From the NCBI GenBank assembly GCA_028351415.1, contig JAOMJV010000003.1:1-64000 (forward strand): DNA of 64,000 bases, in the 5' to 3' direction. Positions 47,956-60,358 of this stretch are shown here, in pieces. The position numbers and the translations under genes were made by a program. A model generated the notes under the pieces. That model did not search any database. It saw only the letters and a program-made list of their open reading frames with translations, and was not told the origin of the DNA. The first letter of the stretch is position 1. Every line of letters begins with the position of its first letter. The stretch comes from Candidatus Nitrosopumilus sp. GTDB lineage: Archaea; Thermoproteota; Nitrososphaeria; Nitrososphaerales; Nitrosopumilaceae.

Positions 47956-48360
47956 TCATCTTGAATGAAACTTTGCCAGTATCTTCCGTCTGCATTTCTC
48001 CGGATTCTTTTCAATGTCATGCTCCCACAGTCTGAGGACGGACCATCCGTCCCGTCTTAGCTTTCGGTTGTACCTCCTGTCGCGCCTCATGTTGTTCTCA
48101 ATCTTGTCGCGCCAGAACTTTTTTGCAAGCCTTTTTTTTTGGCCGTACCTGTACCCGTGCCAAAAGTCGCCGTCGCAGAATATCGCAATCCTCTTTCTTT
48201 TGTGAGCAAAGTCAGGATTGCCGTACATCTTTGGATACATTTCAAACCTGTACCCCGTGTCTTCAAGCATCTGCTTCATGATAAGATCAATCTTTGTGTT
48301 GCTTCCGCGTATCCTTGACATTACCCATGATCTTTTTTCAGGAGTGAAGATGTCCGTCAT
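47956..48360 (-). CDS. vsr: very short patch repair (Vsr-type) endonuclease
   Basis: DIFTPEKRSWVMSRIRGSNTKIDLIMKQMLEDTGYRFEMYPKMYGNPDFAHKRKRIAIFCDGDFWHGYRYG...RRYNRKLRRDGWSVLRLWEHDI. Confidence 0.92.
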   Translation of the reverse strand: MTDIFTPEKRSWVMSRIRGSNTKIDLIMKQMLEDTGYRFEMYPKMYGNPDFAHKRKRIAIFCDGDFWHGYRYGQKKRLAKKFWRDKIENNMRRDRRYNRKLRRDGWSVLRLWEHDIEKNPEKCRRKILAKFHSR

Positions 48361-48726: not shown

Positions 48727-49827
48727 TTACTTTATTGTTTTATCATTGAATCTAAATTCAATATCATTGTACTTACATTCTATAATCAGATCTTGATACT
48801 TTCTTTTGACTTCTTCATCAGTTGCAACATCAGTTCCTGAAAGATAACAAACTAATTTTTTTGAATATTTTATTCCATCAATCGTAATATCAGATTTTTT
48901 AAAGATCATTAGTTTGAATAACGCGTCTAACACATCATTCTCATCTGGAAATTTTCCTTTTGTAGTGTGTTTGCCTTCTAGAATTTCAATTATCCTATTC
49001 TTTTTGTCTATGGAAACACTGTCTGCAGTTAAGAAAATTGTTTTTGAATTTCCCATGTCGACGTTGAACTTTCCTTTTTTACCTGGAACATTTTCTAGTT
49101 TTTGATCACTGGAAAATTCTCTGTGTTGAGCTTTTTCTGATTCCTTGTCTGAATCTAGTAAAAATTTTGGTATGTCTGTATGCCAAACTCCCAGTTTCTT
49201 TTCCAGGGATTTGAAACTTCTTACAAAGACCCCCAGTTCTTTCCCCAACCGCCTGTTATTTTCTATTGCAGTTTTTAACAAAGAAGGGATTCTAACTAGC
49301 TGCTTTTGATTCCAATCTTCTACTTTTGGACAATTTGATACTATCTCCTTCACTTGCTCTAGCAATTCATCATTTTCAAATTCAAAACTTGTGAAAACAG
49401 GCTCTCCTTGAGTGCTGGCTTTGCCTTTGCTGGCATTTGCAGCAGCTTTTCCCTTGGGTCTCATCTTTGCCTTTGTATACACGCCAACAATCACATAGAC
49501 TCCCAACCCTGACATCCATGAAATTGTACCTGGCTGAAGCTTGTTGTCATCACCATGTTTTCCATAACTTGCCTGAACTGGAATGATTGTGATCTTTTTT
49601 CCGTGATGACCTAGCGTACTGTAGACTCTTGGAAACGGATAAGTTTTGGTTCTTTTCGGTGTCGTCCACACACTGATGGCAACAACATCGTCTCCGATTT
49701 TAGATTTGAACGATGTGTTGTTTTCTGTCATTGCGTTGTTAAATTCCAATTCTTTTAATCCTGGATCTTTTGAAAAATTGTAAGACTCTCTTCCAAGTGT
49801 CACTTCAATAATTTCCGGTTCTACCAT
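48727..49827 (-). CDS. candidate restriction endonuclease partner of adjacent Dam-type methylase
   Basis: Follows the methylase gene with a 22-nt gap; RIIEILEGKHTTKG is a possible nuclease core. Assignment is by context. Confidence 0.4.
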   Translation of the reverse strand: MVEPEIIEVTLGRESYNFSKDPGLKELEFNNAMTENNTSFKSKIGDDVVAISVWTTPKRTKTYPFPRVYSTLGHHGKKITIIPVQASYGKHGDDNKLQPGTISWMSGLGVYVIVGVYTKAKMRPKGKAAANASKGKASTQGEPVFTSFEFENDELLEQVKEIVSNCPKVEDWNQKQLVRIPSLLKTAIENNRRLGKELGVFVRSFKSLEKKLGVWHTDIPKFLLDSDKESEKAQHREFSSDQKLENVPGKKGKFNVDMGNSKTIFLTADSVSIDKKNRIIEILEGKHTTKGKFPDENDVLDALFKLMIFKKSDITIDGIKYSKKLVCYLSGTDVATDEEVKRKYQDLIIECKYNDIEFRFNDKTIK

Positions 49828-49849
49828 AAGTAAAATCTGTTAGTCTTGG

Positions 49850-50713
49850 TTATATGTAAAATATTTTTTTAAGTTCACCATTTTTATCAAGATTAATTTT
49901 GATATCCTTGCTGAAAATTAATATCTCACGTGATTTTTTGTTATCGGACATTTTTTTATCAGTGGCCATTGAATACGACCACTTGGGTTCAAGAATAGTG
50001 TGACCCTTGTAGAGTTCCCTGATCGAATCTATGTTGTTGTAAGACATAATCCATTTTTTCTTTTTATCATTTTTTAGAATTTCAGCCAATCCTTTGTGAT
50101 CAAAATTTTTGTGAATCTTGCCATCATTCCCGTACAGTTGGCTTTCAATCAGATACGGAGGATCAAGGTACATCAAATCTTTTTTATGACTTTTAATTGA
50201 TTTTTTAAAATCAATGCATTTGATGGACAACAAGTTTTCCACTTTGAAGTTTCTAATTCTGTCAACTGATGACTCTGTAAATCTTGGATTTGTGTCAATT
50301 GTTCCGTTCGTCTTTTTCTCCCTTGCCATTCCAACTGCAAGTGGGTTTCCAGAATGTGACGTTCTGTTCAGAACATAAAATTCCGTAGCATTTGTCAATC
50401 TGTTTTTTGCCTTTGGGTGTTTTTTCTGCATTTTTTTGTAATCTTCCTCGGTAAATTTTCCGGGCTTGTGCTTCTCGACTTTCTTTGCAAGTCTTTGGGG
50501 GTTTTCAAGCATCTCCTGCCAAAAATCAACCAGCGGCTGAAACTTGTCGTATCCCGTAACCTTAATTCCCTGCTGGGCACAAAATATCTCCAAAGAACCC
50601 CCTCCAAAGAACGGTGAGCACAGAGTCTTTGGCTCTAGCGGCTCTATGTATTTCCAAATTGTCTTTACTGCTCTTGATTTACCCCCCGGATAGCGCAGTG
50701 GGGATTTTATCAT
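49850..50713 (-). CDS. Dam-family N6-adenine DNA methyltransferase
   Basis: KSPLRYPGGKSRAVKTIWKYI, SPFFGGGSLEIFCA, DLMYLDPPYL. Confidence 0.92.
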   Translation of the reverse strand: MIKSPLRYPGGKSRAVKTIWKYIEPLEPKTLCSPFFGGGSLEIFCAQQGIKVTGYDKFQPLVDFWQEMLENPQRLAKKVEKHKPGKFTEEDYKKMQKKHPKAKNRLTNATEFYVLNRTSHSGNPLAVGMAREKKTNGTIDTNPRFTESSVDRIRNFKVENLLSIKCIDFKKSIKSHKKDLMYLDPPYLIESQLYGNDGKIHKNFDHKGLAEILKNDKKKKWIMSYNNIDSIRELYKGHTILEPKWSYSMATDKKMSDNKKSREILIFSKDIKINLDKNGELKKIFYI

Positions 50714-50722
50714 GATTTTTGA

Positions 50723-51448
50723 TTAAATGTTGTGTTTTATAGTTCTACAATATCTGCAATAGGATTGAACAATAATTTTTTTATCCTTCATTTTTCTATA
50801 TCCAAACAGTCTTTCAATTTCATCATACCCTTTAGCTTCTTCCCCGCATCCTTTTCTTGCACAAAATGCCTCTTGAGGAAAATTATGGAATTTTTTTTCA
50901 AAGTTTAATTTTTCTTCATTTAAATAATTTATGAGATCTTTTATGTCATCTTTTACCCATATATCATTAAACAGTGGAGATTTTTTAGAATTTTCATTCC
51001 ACTTTCTAAGCTGAGAGCCCTCTACAATCATTATTAGATGATAAATATTTTTATATTCTTTTATGAATTTTCTATATTTTATGATATCTTCTTCTAATAA
51101 ATTTTCATGTGCTTCAACAATAATTTTTCTATCGTTAATACGAAATCCAAAAATCATCATATCTGGAATATACACGTAATTTTTTGAGTTTACTTCTAGG
51201 GGAAACTTTCTATGTTTAAATTCAATTTGGAATTCTTTGTCCTTCATATTATCTAAAATCTTTGTTTCCCATTTTGAAAAATCTCTATTTGGGTTAAAAT
51301 TTGTAAAATCTACTAAATCTAATTTTACTGCTTTCTTTTTTTTCTTTTTGTAATGTGAACTTTTATCCTTATTTTTTAAAATTTCAAATAATTCTCTAAA
51401 TGCGGAAGAACCAGAACCTAAAATTTTAAATTTTTTATTCGAACTCAA
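50723..51448 (-). CDS. PD-(D/E)XK-like protein with C-terminal zinc finger (island gene)
   Basis: YIPDMMIFGFRINDRKIIVEAHENL nuclease-like core; CARKGCGEEAKG...SYCRYCR. Confidence 0.45.
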   Translation of the reverse strand: MSSNKKFKILGSGSSAFRELFEILKNKDKSSHYKKKKKKAVKLDLVDFTNFNPNRDFSKWETKILDNMKDKEFQIEFKHRKFPLEVNSKNYVYIPDMMIFGFRINDRKIIVEAHENLLEEDIIKYRKFIKEYKNIYHLIMIVEGSQLRKWNENSKKSPLFNDIWVKDDIKDLINYLNEEKLNFEKKFHNFPQEAFCARKGCGEEAKGYDEIERLFGYRKMKDKKIIVQSYCRYCRTIKHNI

Positions 51449-52418
51449 TTTTATATATACACTCCTTATTTATTTTTAGATATTTTTGTTTTAAAAATAT
51501 TTCATCATACGGGTTACGAATTTCATCATATAGATATATTTCTGAAGAATCCACATTACACCATATCTGCAAATAATAGTTATTTCCTATTTCTTGAGAT
51601 ACTTTGATTTCATTTTTACTCCAAAAAATAATCGGTTTGCTATTTTTTGTACCCTTTACCTCGATGTATTTGTCATATTTTAAATCAGAATTATTTCCTG
51701 TGAATGAAATTATGTCGTATCCTAAATTTTCATCCAATGCGCTGACTCTCTTTACAGCAGAGCTAAGAATTCCTTCATTCATATTTAACAGTCTTTCTTT
51801 TTCCTTTTTTACACATTCAAGTTCAGCTAATTTCCCAATTTTCTTCTTTAATTCCTCCCTTTCATCAATATCTTCTTCTGTAACTGGGTGATTATTGCGT
51901 AATTTGGAAAGAATTTCTGATAATTTGTTGTCTATCAAAAATACACCTTTTTTAGCTTTGATTAAATTAATTTCTTGTAATAATTGCCTGTACATAGCTG
52001 GTATTTTGTACATTTCTTTAATTTCAATTTTATTTATTGCGTCTACATGCGCCCAATCAATTACTGATCTCGAAAAAACTTCTTTTACTATTGGGTTATC
52101 CCAAATTTTAGATTCTTTTATGATTTCTATTAATAGTTTTTTTTGTAATGAAAGTGATTTGTCTATCACTTGTTTTTTATTTTCTCCCAACATTATTGAA
52201 TCGTATAGTTTTTCTCCGTTCTTATTTATTGAAATTTCCTGATTATTTTTTTTAAAAATTTTTAATTCAAAACATGTTTGTAAAAGTTCATTAAAATTTA
52301 CATTATGTTCTGAATAATCCCTTTTGTATATGTCCTCAGTAAATTTTATTTTTAAATTGTTATTCACTCCAAATTGTTTAACTATGCATAATATCTGATT
52401 TATTTCAGACGTTATCAT
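51435..52418 (-). CDS. DUF3883-like domain protein (PD-(D/E)XK fold) C-terminus
   Basis: ENLGYDIISFTGNNSDLKYDKYIEVKGTKNSKPIIFWSKNEIKVSQEIGNNYYLQIW. Confidence 0.7.
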   Translation of the reverse strand: MITSEINQILCIVKQFGVNNNLKIKFTEDIYKRDYSEHNVNFNELLQTCFELKIFKKNNQEISINKNGEKLYDSIMLGENKKQVIDKSLSLQKKLLIEIIKESKIWDNPIVKEVFSRSVIDWAHVDAINKIEIKEMYKIPAMYRQLLQEINLIKAKKGVFLIDNKLSEILSKLRNNHPVTEEDIDEREELKKKIGKLAELECVKKEKERLLNMNEGILSSAVKRVSALDENLGYDIISFTGNNSDLKYDKYIEVKGTKNSKPIIFWSKNEIKVSQEIGNNYYLQIWCNVDSSEIYLYDEIRNPYDEIFLKQKYLKINKECIYKIEFE

Positions 52419-54318
52419 TTAGGTACTCTCTTATTCTGTTGATCACTCTGCCATACATTTCTAAATTTTCATGTGACATATTTGTAAAATTGTTATAATC
52501 TATATCCAATCCACCTACTTGGATATTATTTTCGTTTAACATTCTCATTAATTCTCTTTCCTTATTTTCTAAATTTAATTTTATATCTTCGTCAATAGTT
52601 TGTCTGGTGAAAAGAATGTCTATTTTTGTATCTCTTGCTTGTTCTTGTGTTAGCCCATATCTCCAAATTCTAAATTTACTTTGAATCCAATTTGCAGCAT
52701 TATACATTCTATCCACATAAATTGCATGGTGACATTCTCTGTGTAGGGACACAGATTCTGACAATGATGCAGGATTTGCAATTAAAATATTATGGTCATC
52801 CTTATGTTTAAAATCTTCAATAATTTTTTCTTTATTGTTTGTAGGATCGTCCTCATCTGATTGAGGAATTTTTCCATAAATAATATCTGAATTATATCCT
52901 AATTCTTGAGCAATATTTTGTACTTTTTCTATAGTTTTTCTAAAACTACACCAAATCAATAATTTTTCTGGAGGATTTTGTTCCATGGATTGTATTATCA
53001 TTTCTTTTAATACAATTAATTTTCCCGGTGTTTCATATTTCCAATAATCTTCAAGTATAGTTTCTAGTGGAACTCCTTCTGAATCAAAAACTTCGTTAGT
53101 GTATTGATTTTCAGATTGAAGCAATGATGGATCTGTTGCGGCTTCTAAAAGATACATAATGTGTCTATCAATGTCTGAAACCGCCGAATTTCGATCTTCA
53201 TTAAAAGTTGGAATCCCTCTGGCTAACATGTCATTTGCAATTGTTCTGTAAATTCTTGTTTGATCTTTTCCCATTGGACAATGAATGTAATTTGGTATTA
53301 CTGGTTCTAAATCTAAATCGTTTAATCCAATTCTCATCCAATATGGATTAATTTCTTCATAAATTCGTGTAAATTCTGCAGGGTTTTGTATCCGTCTCTC
53401 AAATTGCCCGTATTCTCCTAGTATGTTCTGTGCAGGGTTAAGAAATTCAAACTGTGTCCAAATATCTGCAAATTTATTTGGTAGCGGGGTTCCAGTTAAA
53501 ATCATTCTTCTAAATGCAAATGTTGCAAATTCACTAATTGCCATCCATGTCTCTGATGCTGGATCTTTAATGTGGTGAGCTTCATCCAGTATCACTAAGA
53601 ATCTATTCTGTCTTATGAAATTCTGAATTAATTCTGAATCTCTTCGTACTGTGTCATAATTAATTAGGAAAATTTCGTGACTTGTATCCCTTTCATAGAT
53701 ATGTATACGTTCTTCCTTAGTTCCTACAATTCTTTTAAATTTTTGAATGTTTTCACCCGTGATAATTTGATATTCTGTTTCCCATGTCTTGAATGCTGAT
53801 TTTGGACATATCACGAGTAATTTTTCAACATTGTTTTGTTCAGGTTTATCTTTTAATAAAAAATAACTTGCGTACGCTGTCCATGTTTTCCCACTTCCTG
53901 GAATTGAAAAATTTGCTACATTTTGAACAATTTCTCCATGTCTGACCACTCTATTCTGAAATGGAGTTAGTTCGTGTTGTGGCAAAAAGCCTGGAATTCT
54001 AATTGCTGGAATGTTATCCACATTCCTTTGCTTCATGTCTAATGCATTGTTTCTATTTTGTTGATATGTTATTCGTTGCTGTTGTAAATTATCCAGAATT
54101 GTTTGAATTTGGTTGTCATTTTCATGTTCTAAATTAAGATCGTCTAGAAATGATATCATGTCTTGTAATATTTGTGGGTTATCATTAATCACCTCAAAAT
54201 TATTTTCTGATTTCTTTGTTGCATTTCTTTTAAGATGACTTAACAGAAAAATATTTTTTTTGTTTTGATCATCGACTGATAGACTAAACCCCTTACTTAT
54301 TTTTGAAATGCCTATCAA
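52405..54318 (-). CDS. SNF2-family DEAD-like helicase
   Basis: NFSIPGSGKTWTAYASYFLL, FLVILDEAHHIKDPASETW, ILTGTPLPNKFADIWTQFEFLNP, NILIANPASLSESVSLHRECHHAIYVDRMYNAANWIQSKFRIWRYG. Confidence 0.88.
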   Translation of the reverse strand: MIGISKISKGFSLSVDDQNKKNIFLLSHLKRNATKKSENNFEVINDNPQILQDMISFLDDLNLEHENDNQIQTILDNLQQQRITYQQNRNNALDMKQRNVDNIPAIRIPGFLPQHELTPFQNRVVRHGEIVQNVANFSIPGSGKTWTAYASYFLLKDKPEQNNVEKLLVICPKSAFKTWETEYQIITGENIQKFKRIVGTKEERIHIYERDTSHEIFLINYDTVRRDSELIQNFIRQNRFLVILDEAHHIKDPASETWMAISEFATFAFRRMILTGTPLPNKFADIWTQFEFLNPAQNILGEYGQFERRIQNPAEFTRIYEEINPYWMRIGLNDLDLEPVIPNYIHCPMGKDQTRIYRTIANDMLARGIPTFNEDRNSAVSDIDRHIMYLLEAATDPSLLQSENQYTNEVFDSEGVPLETILEDYWKYETPGKLIVLKEMIIQSMEQNPPEKLLIWCSFRKTIEKVQNIAQELGYNSDIIYGKIPQSDEDDPTNNKEKIIEDFKHKDDHNILIANPASLSESVSLHRECHHAIYVDRMYNAANWIQSKFRIWRYGLTQEQARDTKIDILFTRQTIDEDIKLNLENKERELMRMLNENNIQVGGLDIDYNNFTNMSHENLEMYGRVINRIREYLNDNV

Positions 54319-54319
54319 T

Positions 54320-55624
54320 TTATTTATTTATCAGGTTACTAATTTTTTCAGTTATATCATTTAATGTTTCTATGAAATCTTCATCCTCTAAATTAGATGT
54401 AATTTTATTGGTATCTAATGCTAATAGAAAATCCTTGAATTTTTCAAACTCCATACCTGGGTCATCTGCAACACTGTCATATGCGTCTGCCACTGTCTCT
54501 AAATTCTTGTATGATTTTTCAATTTGACTTTCATCCATTTTTTTAATAAATGATACATCCCCTGTAGTTTTAACTTTTTGATAAACTTGATCATTCAGTA
54601 AGTATTCATTTGTTAATGTTGGATTTTTCTGAAAACACTTGTTTATTGATCTTATTTTACCATGTGATTTTTTTGGTTTAAGTGCAGTAGTCAATAATGC
54701 CCACTTTCTTGCTTCAATATCCACCTCAGATACCCCACTCCCTGGTTCTCTTAATGCAGTTAAAACATTTAAAATATTTTGAAAATATGTTAATCCTCCT
54801 GCATTTTCTTTATTTTGAATCAAGTTATATTTTCGAGGCTTGTCTAACACGTTGTTCAAAAAATCATCAATTAAATCTATGAGTTCTTTTTCCTTAATGA
54901 TTCCCTTCCAATTACCTTTTACTTTTGGAAATGCATTTTTCATATAATTTTTATCTTCATTTGTAGGATTTTGCCAATCCTTGATGTACTCTGTATCCAA
55001 TAATCTTTTTCTAATGTTCAAACATTCTGTAACTGCAGAATAGTTTTGCTTAAAATCTTCTTTTCTTTGTAATCTTGTTTCTAAATCCTCCAATTGTTTT
55101 ATGTTCATTTCAGGTAAAACTACCACTTCAACAAATCCATACTTGGCATCTTGTTCATCAATTTCTAAATGATATCTATTTGCAATCCTTCTATTCCCAT
55201 TCCAAATTATGCCCGTATTGCTAATTATTGCAGGATCATTTTGACCTATATTTATTAACTCTGATTTTAAATCTCCTGAACTTACATTAGAATAACTTTC
55301 AGCTGTTAATAGGATATTCCGTATTTTATCTTGATGTTTTAAGTTCTCATAATCCAATTCTTCCCCTGTTTGTTCCAGTTCATATTTGTAATCCTCTAAT
55401 TGATCTGTAATTCTCCCATTGTTATAATTTAATCTTAATTGTGTTATTGGTATTGTATACACCGGTAAATCTTTTACATCAGTATCGCTAAAAACTCCAA
55501 CGGGATATGTCTTCCATTTAGCATCTGTTGTTCCGTCTACTGTTATGCTTACCCCATGAGCATTTAGATCTTGAAACTGTTTAATTATCTCCTTTCTTGA
55601 TGTTGTCCAACTATTATTACTCAT
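54320..55624 (-). CDS. ParB N-terminal-like domain protein
   Basis: VYTIPITQLRLNYNNGR...ISNTGIIWNGNRRIANRYHLEI...GFVEVVVLPE (GNRR motif). Confidence 0.65.
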   Translation of the reverse strand: MSNNSWTTSRKEIIKQFQDLNAHGVSITVDGTTDAKWKTYPVGVFSDTDVKDLPVYTIPITQLRLNYNNGRITDQLEDYKYELEQTGEELDYENLKHQDKIRNILLTAESYSNVSSGDLKSELINIGQNDPAIISNTGIIWNGNRRIANRYHLEIDEQDAKYGFVEVVVLPEMNIKQLEDLETRLQRKEDFKQNYSAVTECLNIRKRLLDTEYIKDWQNPTNEDKNYMKNAFPKVKGNWKGIIKEKELIDLIDDFLNNVLDKPRKYNLIQNKENAGGLTYFQNILNVLTALREPGSGVSEVDIEARKWALLTTALKPKKSHGKIRSINKCFQKNPTLTNEYLLNDQVYQKVKTTGDVSFIKKMDESQIEKSYKNLETVADAYDSVADDPGMEFEKFKDFLLALDTNKITSNLEDEDFIETLNDITEKISNLINK

Positions 55625-55689: not shown

Positions 55690-58600
55690 TTATTCCTCCG
55701 TCACCTTTGCATCACAGATACTCTGGTACGAACAGAACATACATGCATTGTAGCTAGGTGTTGCCTCAAAGTTCTCTAGCAAAATCTCCTTTGTCATGCC
55801 AATGATTGTATCCACTGTCTCCTTAACTGACTCCTCGGTCACTGGATACTCTACCATCTTGTCTTTTTCCACATAAAACAGGGATGCTTTTACGGGCAGT
55901 TCCCCCTTTAGTTTCTCCACTGCCATTGCATAGATGTTCAGCTGCGGGTCTATCTTGGCCTTGTTTTTTGACTTTACGGTTTTGCCAGACTTGAAATCAA
56001 CCACCTCGTACTTTCCATCAGGATTCTTCTCCAACCTGTCTATCCTTCCAGTAAACGTAATCTCACCAATCTTCACATCAAATGGTACCTCCAAACCTAC
56101 AAGCTCGTTCTTTGTTTCTTTTTCCCATTTGACATACGTCTTGACCATTCCTTCAGCTCTCTCAGTTGCGGTGTCTTCCTCTGATTGACTTTGATAGGAG
56201 TTGAAAATCCACTTGTCCTTAATTTTTTCTAGCGCTTTTTCTTCAACTACTTCCTCTCCCTTCATTTTCTCATTTGCAACTTCTTCTGTGATTGCATGAA
56301 CTACGTTCCCAAGATCCAATGCGACACTGGATGGACTTGGAACGCGTAAAATTTTTTGAAACTTGAATTTTAGCGGGCAGTCTGAATATGCCGTAATACT
56401 ACTTGGAGACAGTGTAAAACTTTCTTTGTTGATCAACGGAATTTTATCTCCGGTTAGTTCCTCAGTTAAATTGACATCATCAATGTTTATCTTCAACACT
56501 TCTTGCGCGTCAAAATTATCAAAGCTCCCATGTTTTTCAAAATGTTTTACTCTTGCCAGTTCTACAATTCTGTGTATCGCAGTTTTTAGATTCAACTGAT
56601 TAATTGCACTTGCTGCTTCTTTTTGCAAGTCTGCCTTTACTCTGTCAATGATTTCCTCTGCCTGCATGTTCATGGAATCTGATTCCTTGAAATCAATCAA
56701 TTTGATCAGTGGATTTTTCTCATAATCTAATTCCGTCAAGAATTGGGATGGATCCTTTTCGTTTACATTTCCAGGATATTTCTTTGGATACAGCAAAAAT
56801 AGCATGTTCATGGCACGGGTCATCCCTACGTAAAAGAGCCTGCGCTCTTCTTCCAGGTGCAACTGGCTGGTCTCTATGGTTCTGTCTACTCCTCTCATTA
56901 GTTTTTGAGGCACGTGAAATGTTCTATCCTTGTATGACACTGGAAACCTTTTCTCAGCTAAATCCGTAATGAACACTACGGGAAACTCCTTTCCCTTGCT
57001 TTTGTGCAATGTCTGAACGTTTACCGCATCCTCAAAAAGTACGTCCTTAATCTCAATTTCAAATTCACCTAAAATAGAAACGTGGATTAAAAATTCTGAT
57101 AAGGGTTCATCAGAATAGATGTCCTGAAATTCTTGTGTTATCTCGTAAAATTTATTTAATAAAATAATATTTTTCTTGTCTTGTATTTTTTCTGAATATA
57201 TTGATTTTTTATAGATGTCCGAATACGACATCATAATTTTATACACAAGTTGTGAAATGGTGGCAGTACTGGAAAAAGTAATTATGTTGTCAATTTGTTC
57301 AATCAGTTCCTTGATTTCTTCTTTTTGAGTAATATCAAACTCGTCAAACTTGCGCAGTGTATCTAAAACATAGTCGTCTTGGCCGTCATAGACATGTCGA
57401 GCTTTCTTGTGTGCGGCATGTGTGATGACTGTAATATTTTTTTCTGCAACTCCCTGACTCTTTAGCAGTCTGAATACTTCTGCGCCAGATGATAGTGGGG
57501 AACTGGTAATTTTTAAAAATGAAATCAAATCCAGTATGCCCGGACTTGAAAATATGTTTGACTCTCCGGTAAACGTTGCAGGTATGCCAAATGATTTTAG
57601 TGTCTTTGCAAATTTCTGTCCTTCTGTCTTTCTTCTTGACAAGACTGTAATGTCGCTGTAGGCAATTGGCTTGGTAGTCCCGTCCCGTCTTTTTAGTGGC
57701 TTTCCAATAATTTTTTGAATTGTGTTGACTGTAAATTCCACTTCCCCGTTATCTGAGGCTGTTCGGATAACTTTGATTAGTTCCCCCTCCTCATGTGATG
57801 AAAACAGTGACTTTTTCACTCTGTTGGATATTGGATTTAGAAGCTGGTTTGCCAATTTGACAATGTTTTGATTGCTGCGATAGTTTTGGCTTAGTTCTAC
57901 CGTGTCACAGGTGTACGATGACTTGAAGTCATCAAATATTCCCGAATACGCTCCCTGAAATTTCATTATGCATTGATCATCGTCCCCTACTGCCGTGATG
58001 TTTCCGTGCTTTGCCAACAGTTTGAGAATTTCCATCTGTGAAAAATTGTTATCCTGAAACTCGTCAACCAAAATGTGTTGGAATTTTTTCTGATAATTTG
58101 ATAGAATTACAGGATCTTTTTGCAGCAACTCTACAGTTTTTGTAATCATGTCATCAAAGTCTATCAGTTGTTTTTCTTTTAGATGCGCTTGATACGCGTA
58201 ATACACCTTGTTGAACTCGTTTAATTTTTTAAAGAATTTGGTCTGCTCTTTTACCTCGTCTTCTTCGGGGTCTCTTGAATCCAATATTTTTAAATTTTCA
58301 TCAACATGCTGCTGAACCCTGTCGGGTGAGATCATCTCTTCCTTGAAATTACTTATTGCCTCTAAAATTGCAGAGTAAATTCTAACTTGGTTATTACCTA
58401 GCTCAAGATAGTTTGAATCAAAATTAAACTTGTCTGTGTTCCTGATACACCATACTGTCTGTGATGATTTTTTTAAAATTTTTGTATCCCTTCCCAGACC
58501 TGACTCCATAAAGTTTTCCTCCAGAATTTCTTTTGAAAAAGCATGAAACGTGCTAATTTTTGCGTCAATGATTCCGTGCTTTTCCAGTCTCTGCTTCATC

Positions 58601-58785
58601 TCCCCTGCAGCTTTGTCTGTGAATGTTAAGCACAAAATTGATGACTGCTCCACATCCGACTTTACTAGTTGGAGAATTTTTTCAATGATGACTCTGGTCT
58701 TTCCGCTTCCGGGACCTGCAATTACAAGCAACGGGCCTTTGGAGTGACTTGCAGCCTTTGCTTGCTGTTCGTTTAATTCAAACAT
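55690..58785 (-). CDS. UvrD/Rep-like SF1 helicase fused to C-terminal RecB-like nuclease with Fe-S-type cysteines
   Basis: GPLLVIAGPGSGKTRVI, ILVDEFQDNN, VQTLHKSKGKEFPVVF; C-terminal SDCPLKFKF, EVVDFKSGK, PQLNIYAM, CMFCSYQSIC (AddB/Cas4-like Cys arrangement). Confidence 0.9.
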   Translation of the reverse strand: MFELNEQQAKAASHSKGPLLVIAGPGSGKTRVIIEKILQLVKSDVEQSSILCLTFTDKAAGEMKQRLEKHGIIDAKISTFHAFSKEILEENFMESGLGRDTKILKKSSQTVWCIRNTDKFNFDSNYLELGNNQVRIYSAILEAISNFKEEMISPDRVQQHVDENLKILDSRDPEEDEVKEQTKFFKKLNEFNKVYYAYQAHLKEKQLIDFDDMITKTVELLQKDPVILSNYQKKFQHILVDEFQDNNFSQMEILKLLAKHGNITAVGDDDQCIMKFQGAYSGIFDDFKSSYTCDTVELSQNYRSNQNIVKLANQLLNPISNRVKKSLFSSHEEGELIKVIRTASDNGEVEFTVNTIQKIIGKPLKRRDGTTKPIAYSDITVLSRRKTEGQKFAKTLKSFGIPATFTGESNIFSSPGILDLISFLKITSSPLSSGAEVFRLLKSQGVAEKNITVITHAAHKKARHVYDGQDDYVLDTLRKFDEFDITQKEEIKELIEQIDNIITFSSTATISQLVYKIMMSYSDIYKKSIYSEKIQDKKNIILLNKFYEITQEFQDIYSDEPLSEFLIHVSILGEFEIEIKDVLFEDAVNVQTLHKSKGKEFPVVFITDLAEKRFPVSYKDRTFHVPQKLMRGVDRTIETSQLHLEEERRLFYVGMTRAMNMLFLLYPKKYPGNVNEKDPSQFLTELDYEKNPLIKLIDFKESDSMNMQAEEIIDRVKADLQKEAASAINQLNLKTAIHRIVELARVKHFEKHGSFDNFDAQEVLKINIDDVNLTEELTGDKIPLINKESFTLSPSSITAYSDCPLKFKFQKILRVPSPSSVALDLGNVVHAITEEVANEKMKGEEVVEEKALEKIKDKWIFNSYQSQSEEDTATERAEGMVKTYVKWEKETKNELVGLEVPFDVKIGEITFTGRIDRLEKNPDGKYEVVDFKSGKTVKSKNKAKIDPQLNIYAMAVEKLKGELPVKASLFYVEKDKMVEYPVTEESVKETVDTIIGMTKEILLENFEATPSYNACMFCSYQSICDAKVTEE

Positions 58786-59612
58786 TATGGAATCACCACG
58801 TACAAGGGAACGTTCATTGCAGACTTGTCTTTGATTGCTTCTCTAAAATCAGTTGTGTTGAAATTCACGCCGACAATTGAATTTAACGCATCAACACATG
58901 TTTCACTGTATGGTGATGTCATAAATTGCCTGAATCCTCTATACGCCAAAGGCTGACTGTCCATGAATTCATTGCAATATGGGTTCAAGTCCAGATCGAA
59001 TCCTATCCTTGGTTCTCCTGGTAATCTGTTTGATATTTTCAAATTTTTTCTTGCCACGTTGGCATTGCAAATTGACTCATCCCATAGAATTCCCTGTATT
59101 TGTCTCTCTGCCCTGAACTGATGATACTCATTGCTGTTCATTGTGTTGCACTGAGTCAACGAATAATCAATTGCATAGTGACCCAACTCATGACGCAACA
59201 ATACTTTTTTTGCAATGTTGTTCATATCTCTATGAATTTCCTGTGACGTCTTTTGACCGTTTGGCATGTTCATGAAAATACTTCCATTTGGATCATTAAT
59301 GATTTTATTTTCAAAATATGATGCAAGCCAATTGATTCCACTTTCAAGGAAGTAAATCCCCCAGTCTGCCGGAGACACGTGCGGTGATACGTAATATGCC
59401 AACACGTCAATGTCTGCAATCTCGTTTCCTTCCATCACGCTGTCAAATTGAATTTGTCTTTGGTTGCCATGATCTGTTTCCGGTTGATATCGGTTGAACT
59501 GTTGATGTGACATTCTTTGTATGTGTCCGTCAAAAAAATCGATGTCTCCCTCAAATGGCCGATTTAAATCCATTAATCTTATCTGCAATGGATTTAGTCT
59601 CTCGTGCATCAT
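58785..59612 (-). CDS. predicted zinc metalloprotease (HExxH)
   Basis: KKVLLRHELGHYAIDYSLTQ (HELGH) with downstream ERQIQGILWDESICNA candidate third ligand; overlaps both operon neighbours. Confidence 0.65.
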   Translation of the reverse strand: MMHERLNPLQIRLMDLNRPFEGDIDFFDGHIQRMSHQQFNRYQPETDHGNQRQIQFDSVMEGNEIADIDVLAYYVSPHVSPADWGIYFLESGINWLASYFENKIINDPNGSIFMNMPNGQKTSQEIHRDMNNIAKKVLLRHELGHYAIDYSLTQCNTMNSNEYHQFRAERQIQGILWDESICNANVARKNLKISNRLPGEPRIGFDLDLNPYCNEFMDSQPLAYRGFRQFMTSPYSETCVDALNSIVGVNFNTTDFREAIKDKSAMNVPLYVVIP

Positions 59613-60358
59613 CTTCTTCTTGCCTCCAAAACAGATAGCGGCTTTTCAATTCCATTTTTGTTATTGGAACAAGTCGTTTGGTAGTTGCACAGTTTGCAAA
59701 ACGAGTTCACCTGACCGTCTGGCATCTCTTTGGACTTTATTGCATTTTCAATTGCTGTTACCTTGCTGATAATCCAGTTTGACATGTCCTCTTTTTGTAT
59801 TTCAAATGATACGACGTCATTCATGTCAAGATAGACTATCGTCAGTTTCTCCACTGGAATTATGTTCTCAAATATTGTTCCATAGATTTGAATCTGCTTG
59901 ATGTGTGAGTCAAACGGCAATAGTCCTTCGCTTGTACTTTTGGAAACATTATCCATTGTTTTAAACTCGATAATGTTCTTCTCTTCTGGATCGTAGCAAT
60001 CCAGCCTTCCAAAGACCGGAATGTCTTCCCCGTTTATGCTTACTGTGTATTTTCCTTCAAGCTCGTTCCAGCTGTATGCCTGAGTTATCTGGTGAAGAAA
60101 GTTACCCCTGGTTGTCCTCCATATGTTGTCCTCCACCTGTGTCAGGTCTATTTTTTCAAAGGATGTCCTGGTTTTTTGAAAAAATGCCTTTCTTGGACAG
60201 CCTAGAAGGGCACTGACAGAGTACCCCATTGTATTTCTGGCAGGATAAATCCTGTTCTCCCTTCCCAGAAACTCTATGATTTTGTCTGGTGTTTTGATTT
60301 GTTGTGTTCTTCTCATGACAACCTTAGTCGGCAAATCTATTGATGCATGCAAATGCAA
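59609..60358 (-). CDS. Cas4/RecB-like nuclease; likely start ATG at 60316
   Basis: ALLGCPRKAFFQKTR, VFGRLDCYDPEEKNIIEFKTM, HIKQIQIYGTIF, FCKLCNYQTTC. MRRTQQ start at 60316 avoids overlap with the operator. Confidence 0.75.
   Translation of the reverse strand: MHLHASIDLPTKVVMRRTQQIKTPDKIIEFLGRENRIYPARNTMGYSVSALLGCPRKAFFQKTRTSFEKIDLTQVEDNIWRTTRGNFLHQITQAYSWNELEGKYTVSINGEDIPVFGRLDCYDPEEKNIIEFKTMDNVSKSTSEGLLPFDSHIKQIQIYGTIFENIIPVEKLTIVYLDMNDVVSFEIQKEDMSNWIISKVTAIENAIKSKEMPDGQVNSFCKLCNYQTTCSNNKNGIEKPLSVLEARRR

Follow-up and report, generated by a model that had tools for sequence, protein, structure and literature searches.

Do the six closely packed genes at positions 48727-55624 of a contig of Candidatus Nitrosopumilus sp. 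form a restriction system of their own, and which of them belong together? The locus lies in a 64,000-nt stretch of DNA (the window) from an incomplete MAG (78%). The original prediction, made from the letters of this stretch, had proposed a distinct multi-gene system; a restriction-type system is indeed supported, but the conserved unit is an ordered ParB-SNF2-DUF3883 triad and not the six genes, and the methylase, the Type II restriction endonuclease (REase) and a 241-aa protein are exchangeable partners varying by locus. This three-gene core adjoins DNA methylases in about 100 other bacteria and archaea and is, therefore, probably a widespread DNA-defence module. As the best explanation, the locus would be a DNA-defence operon gained by horizontal transfer and exerting methylation-gated, ATP-driven restriction, in which a ParB-type clamp would recruit both an SNF2 motor and a nuclease of the PD-(D/E)XK type, and to this reading as a whole we assign a probability of about 0.6. 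If it is correct, a common means of defence has gone unnoticed behind its annotations (partition protein for the ParB-like gene, DUF3883 for the nuclease); the ParB clamp fold would enter restriction, DUF3883 nucleases would gain a role and, with one restriction machine standing beside methylases of every class, the discrimination between marked and unmarked DNA would become directly testable.

Gene Layout and Island Setting

The six ORFs lie on the minus strand with spacings, in the order of transcription, of 1, -14, -14, 9 and 22 nt, as had been described (leftward genes with 14-nt overlaps or gaps of 1-22 nt). Pfam, PADLOC and NCBIfam scans covered ten genes, between 46.6 and 58.8 kb, and the features of the region, from upstream to downstream, are:

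55690..60358, minus strand: Cas4-like gene (249 aa), 275-aa gene and UvrD-PDDEXK gene (1031 aa); upstream neighbours, outside the conserved core
54320..55624, minus strand: ParB-like gene, 434 aa; predicted NTPase (CTPase) fold of the ParB/Srx kind with GNRR phosphate motif, HTH in the centre, C-terminus helical
52405..54318, minus strand: SNF2-family SF2 ATPase/translocase, 637 aa; PF00176 2.5e-28, Helicase_C 1.5e-8
51435..52418, minus strand: DUF3883/NOV_C PD-(D/E)XK nuclease, 327 aa; PF13020 1.3e-13
50723..51448, minus strand: 241-aa protein; PD...ExH nuclease-like core and a zinc ribbon at the C-terminus; fourth gene of the module in archaea
49850..50713, minus strand: D12-class (Dam-like) DNA methyltransferase, 287 aa; PF02086 1.5e-30, PADLOC MTase_II 4.2e-48
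48727..49827, minus strand: Type II restriction endonuclease, 366 aa; PADLOC REase_II PDLC03572 1.8e-46 over 19-362
47956..48360, minus strand: Vsr-type endonuclease, 134 aa; TIGR00632 1.5e-29; 366 nt downstream of the six-gene run

These six ORFs are genes and not chance frames, since four of them match curated models or PADLOC profiles, the ParB-like protein has about 100 homologues at the same position and the 241-aa protein has one, in another archaeal locus. The earlier domain assignments hold for the ParB-like fold, SNF2, DUF3883, the D12 methylase and the restriction enzyme, and the nuclease call for the 241-aa protein comes down to a PD...ExH motif. The gene regarded as a candidate restriction enzyme can be assigned to a known Type II REase family and lies 22 nt from the D12 methylase gene, in the adjacency typical of Type II restriction-modification (R-M), so that the window contains an ordinary-looking Type II R-M pair together with the triad. 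The same-strand run begins upstream of the ParB-like gene: the UvrD-PDDEXK (55690-58785), 275-aa and Cas4-like genes form a tight series 65 nt away, possibly co-transcribed with the six genes.

From 45.9 kb to the end of the window no counterpart was found beside purP in four relatives, and the triad DNA has a G+C content of 30-32%, against 36-38% in neighbouring genes; the 45.9-64 kb segment is, therefore, an accessory island. No tRNA was found at the island edge within the window.

A Conserved ParB-SNF2-DUF3883 Triad

A tblastn search with the ParB-like protein against plasmids identified the whole triad in Kozakia, Mesorhizobium, Azospirillum and Rhizobium; in Lactiplantibacillus and Exiguobacterium the ParB-SNF2 pair is followed by other genes. 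Cytosine methylases and Vsr are often close to these plasmid loci. Because the ParB sequences diverge too much to be scanned as a pattern, the search relied on the SNF2 alignment, which gave 564 relatives in the genome scan, 80 of which were kept, plus 20 viral contigs; neighbour profiles were built from the first few members and some loci are duplicated between collections (e.g., L053/L105). SNF2 adjoins ParB and/or DUF3883 in 107 of 110 loci, and in 99 of the 102 chosen by SNF2 similarity only. The one-strand order ParB>SNF2>DUF3883 is found with 89 of 106 full-length SNF2 homologues, with median spacings of 0 and -26 nt. The neighbourhood check suggested for these modules thus finds them together in about 100 other loci, in archaea (Thaumarchaeota, Nanoarchaeota, Micrarchaeota, Thermoplasmata, Methanoperedens and an Asgard MAG), in bacteria (Bacillota, Bacteroidota, Actinomycetota, Pseudomonadota, Elusimicrobia and others) and also in plasmid, prophage and viral-contig DNA. 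Single-protein pattern scans of viral contigs for ParB, the 241-aa gene and the REase gave no matches.

Within the phylum of the window, searches of 398 genomes with the ParB profile and with SNF2 independently matched the same four genomes at adjacent positions, indicating a module that is rare but real in these archaea. In the SNF2 tree the window groups, with strong support, with L022 and with a Nitrosopelagicus locus (L023). An accessory segment that is not beside purP in relatives would also suit a defence island in which unrelated genes cluster with no joint function, but this explanation is hardly credible: it is contradicted by the order and the overlapping stops and starts conserved in 89/106 homologues, by the triad linkage in about 100 loci and by the adjacency in four genomes of 398.

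Some variants of the arrangement were also observed. The ParB search gave one further weak match (G059 C1:584442-585344), in a congener that lacks the SNF2 gene; this match has two internal stops and is possibly a remnant of the module. In L114, L117, L119 and L120, Type III Mod and Res genes stand immediately before ParB and SNF2, and DUF3883 is missing, as though the ParB-SNF2 pair had been borrowed by Type III restriction. In the Bacillota loci L009 and L010, by-eye assignment gives the SNF2 protein a PLD-like domain at its N-terminus, and L009 has a MutH/Sau3AI-like protein where DUF3883 would stand.

The ParB-Like Protein

By itself, the ParB-like gene gave no useful match in the Pfam, PADLOC and NCBIfam scans, and PADLOC 2023 has no model for it; its plasmid homologues carry the annotation ParB/RepB/Spo0J. 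A profile of 45 homologues weakly aligns the GQxxP, GNRR and HTH segments with Myxococcus ParB (E 0.003); matches of the ParB profile to PDB entries of designed helical repeats were discounted as effects of composition. The strongest evidence comes from the AlphaFold (AF2) model (pLDDT 84.7, pTM 0.83), for which Foldseek ranks pNOB8 ParB first. In VIA-align the first 17 rows are Noc, KorB, ParB (including pNOB8), PadC or sulfiredoxin (Srx), with Z from 10.2 to 6.2 and an alignment covering the NTPase fold and the HTH, and unrelated helical proteins score Z <5. The gene product is, thus, predicted to have the ParB-CTPase fold.

The invariant residues are Q127, N143, R145 and R324 (numbered without Met1), and G[NE]RR or a close variant occurs in 91 of 101 homologues, with GNRR in 86 of those 91 (GxRR). 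The canonical ParB motif is GERR, whose glutamate is needed for CTP hydrolysis; with asparagine in its place, hydrolysis may be slow or different in this protein. ParB-fold proteins can bind ATP, GTP or CTP and their nucleotide specificity is not predictable (PMC12704722). A protein with this predicted fold may bind a nucleotide and close as a clamp.

The N-terminal NTPase fold and the HTH are shared with the Noc/KorB/ParB CTPases (Z 8-10), from which the protein differs in GNRR for GERR, in the absence of ParA and in its fixed linkage to SNF2 and a nuclease. It is improbable that the gene is a plasmid-partition relic or an operon regulator of the Noc/KorB kind, standing outside the cutting machine. 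The fold is, in fact, closest to Noc and to KorB, which is a repressor, and several copies are plasmid-borne; but ParA is absent among the window neighbours of the gene, which is thus not in a ParABS arrangement, chromosomes of distant phyla preserve the order of the genes, and three Type III-linked loci (L114, L117 and L120) retain ParB and SNF2 though they have no DUF3883.

The SNF2, DUF3883 and 241-aa Proteins

Walker A and DExH motifs are present in all 106 full-length SNF2 homologues. The DUF3883 protein has a region of about 190 aa N-terminal to its NOV_C domain and bears the D...ExK catalytic residues of the PD-(D/E)XK nucleases: E198, E205, D234, E252 and K254 (numbered without Met1) are invariant in 36 aligned homologues, and the G[YFW]D...ExK pattern occurs in 90 of 96, the remainder being partly truncated or outside the pattern. 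In PADLOC the DUF3883 members only cross-match PDC-S36, PD-T4-1 and TmtA, presumably by their common domain; in the relevant papers DUF3883 is treated as a presumed Type II REase or as an SNF2-fused REase (PMC10609329, PMC3710099).

No match to the 241-aa protein was found in Pfam, PADLOC or NCBIfam, and its AF2 model (pLDDT 41.6) is too poor to use. A homologue occupies the same position in the archaeal locus L022, and P95, D96, E112 and H114 are kept in both; with histidine for lysine, the PD...ExH core is nuclease-like but may be inactive or altered. Its C-terminal zinc-ribbon segment is common to another nuclease-like protein of a congener. The ribbon, I-E-x-x-F-G-Y-R ... Q-S-x-C-x-x-C-R (window 50723-50900, L123, L022 13490-15142), recurs at the end of that nuclease-like protein and in one unrelated protein from these archaea, and it is present on HTH proteins of small enterobacterial plasmids.

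Exchangeable Methylases and Restriction Enzymes

A DNA methyltransferase (MTase) is encoded within seven genes of the triad in 50 of 53 well-flanked loci (C5 in 29, N4/N6 in 12, D12 in 6 and Type III Mod in 3), and the class switches at least eight times on the SNF2 tree; Vsr is a recurrent neighbour (18/53). Separate partner REases are of different families: BanI/DpnII-like, BglII, HaeIII and Mrr. In archaea, L022 has a D12 methylase, a HaeIII-family REase, ParB, SNF2, DUF3883 and the 241-aa homologue, and G202 has ParB, SNF2 and DUF3883 with an SPPY methylase and a different gene that, by eye, is REase-like. At the other end of the range, L035 is a bare four-gene cassette, D12+ParB+SNF2+DUF3883, amid housekeeping genes (LD-carboxypeptidase/secreted-protein genes on one side, purH/mreB on the other), and L028 resembles it. 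The minimal type met most often has a C5 methylase with a conserved C-terminal extension of about 200 aa, which might hold another activity.

Homologues of the window REase were found in four to five other archaeal genomes or loci (300 genomes searched), directly beside an SPPY-type methylase in all three loci examined in full; a tblastn search of plasmids and phages gave no match. One of these genomes is taken to be that of S. acidocaldarius DSM 639, the source of SuaI, and its homologue is likely SuaI itself. SuaI acts on GGCC, with m4C as the modification (PMC5809426). The D12 class of the window MTase suggests an m6A mark. A D12 methylase also lies 2 nt upstream of the HaeIII-family REase in L022 (6828-8599). 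D12 methylases normally make m6A, and the HaeIII-family site GGCC contains no adenine; for D12 with a HaeIII-family enzyme (L022) or with a SuaI-type enzyme (the window), either the site specificity or the modified base departs from expectation.

A complete Type II R-M pair, present in many loci including the window, could suffice for restriction, and the triad may therefore assist and not be the cutter. On this account, which we consider rather unlikely, the Type II enzyme would cut first and the triad would only process ends, degrade the cut DNA or suppress repair. Type II REase families do share the operon in the window, in L022, in the RA (BanI/DpnII-like) loci and in the BglII loci, and MTase and REase classes vary as the triad stays the same, so that the triad would not have to recognise the site itself; against this, operons of methylase and triad with no recognisable REase occur in L035, in L028 and among the C5 loci (e.g., L052, L058 and L062). 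With the triad beside methylases of every class, recognition likely lies in a varying part (the ParB HTH or the partner enzymes) or follows a first Type II cut, and the loci lacking a recognisable Type II enzyme favour the varying part.

The co-occurrence of several nucleases with one methylase also bears on a guard or abortive function, in which the triad would be silent until the partner R-M is inhibited or phage DNA is modified and would then destroy DNA without selection. PD-lambda-5, described as a compacted R-M+Abi system, has the same MTase class; but the triad has no toxin-type domain, and its motor and nuclease resemble ordinary restriction parts, which makes this function improbable.

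Comparison With Known Systems

With Type II R-M the locus shares an adjacent methylase and a recognised Type II REase, which has a homologue in the genome of S. acidocaldarius, and differs by the added translocase, ParB-like protein and second nuclease; in addition, the SuaI-type relatives pair with SPPY methylases, whereas that of the window pairs with D12. The logic of methylase, SNF2 and nuclease recalls DISARM, but DrmC is missing and, in the ten scanned genes, no DrmB (DUF1998) was found and the DrmA helicase and DrmD gave only weak cross-matches through the helicase domain (DrmD 5.4e-7 at best). Likewise, BREX PglZ and BrxC were not found in the Pfam, PADLOC and NCBIfam scans of the ten genes; the original prediction, which had recognised no DrmB, PglZ or BrxC, agrees with these results. 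BREX-related (BR) systems (PMC12839542) have a DNA methylase, a Swi2/Snf2 helicase and a PD-(D/E)XK nuclease, and the triad locus L086 has a DUF1156 MTase, in a further likeness to them; in BR systems the nuclease is fused to the helicase, whereas here the DUF3883 nuclease is separate and a ParB-like protein leads. DUF499 has been linked to BR systems (PMC12839542), and no DUF499-type ATPase was matched by Pfam among the ten genes. Operons of the Ava_2192 type (PMC3710099) place SNF2 and a DUF3883 predicted REase in an R-M operon, but as a fusion and with a HEPN-AAA+ (DUF499) protein, whereas here the genes are separate and led by ParB.

The SNF2 domain of the window is most like ZorD of Zorya I in PADLOC (1.7e-22); the likeness is confined to this domain, and the ZorA/ZorB motor was not found in the scans. 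Dpd and Dnd have ParB-superfamily proteins (DpdB, DndB) and Dpd has the SNF2 protein DpdE, but here methylation stands in the place of deazaguanine or phosphorothioate enzymes; the ten-gene scans gave no match to the DpdA transglycosylase and weak DpdE matches by the SNF2 domain only. Membership in DISARM, BREX, Zorya and Dpd was rejected, their signature genes being missing from the scans. As the check proposed with the original prediction, a search for an exactly matching named system found no name for the triad in PADLOC-DB 2023, NCBIfam, Pfam or the open-access literature, and the triad may be named elsewhere; a 2025 survey of the ParB fold mentions helicases in passing and no SNF2 (PMC12704722).

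Proposed Mechanism

The gene linkage, folds, catalytic motifs and methylase association described above were obtained by computation, and from them we infer the working of the system. The conserved three-gene restriction module would be coupled to a modification/restriction cassette that can be exchanged, here the D12 methylase, the Type II endonuclease and the nuclease-like 241-aa protein. Judging from its family, the methylase would mark self DNA. On unmarked invader DNA the ParB-like protein would load through its HTH and close with an NTP, and the clamp would recruit the SNF2 motor, which, as is known for its family, would track along DNA; the DUF3883 nuclease, with its conserved catalytic residues, would then cut. 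The Type II endonuclease, absent from minimal loci, would act where present as a parallel first strike. A bolder proposition, advanced tentatively, is that these loci, distributed in many bacterial phyla and in archaea, are a separate, unnamed class of methylation-dependent restriction. A nucleotide-gated DNA clamp of the ParB type would here act as sensor and would load the SNF2 motor and the DUF3883 nuclease, and almost any methylase (m5C, m4C, m6A, even Type III) would provide the self mark.

Other Genes of the Island

The Vsr gene (47956-48360) is found in a genome in which a PF00145 search detected no C5 cytosine methylase (MAG 78% complete), and the normal role of Vsr is the repair of m5C deamination. 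The UvrD-PDDEXK gene is missing from most relatives, is present in G009 and lies about 2 kb from the triad also in L022; it was rejected as a part of the system, since its position is not conserved and its G+C is 0.38, against 0.30-0.32 for the triad. Together with the 275-aa and Cas4-like genes (55690-60358) it perhaps forms a separate accessory operon of repair or defence.
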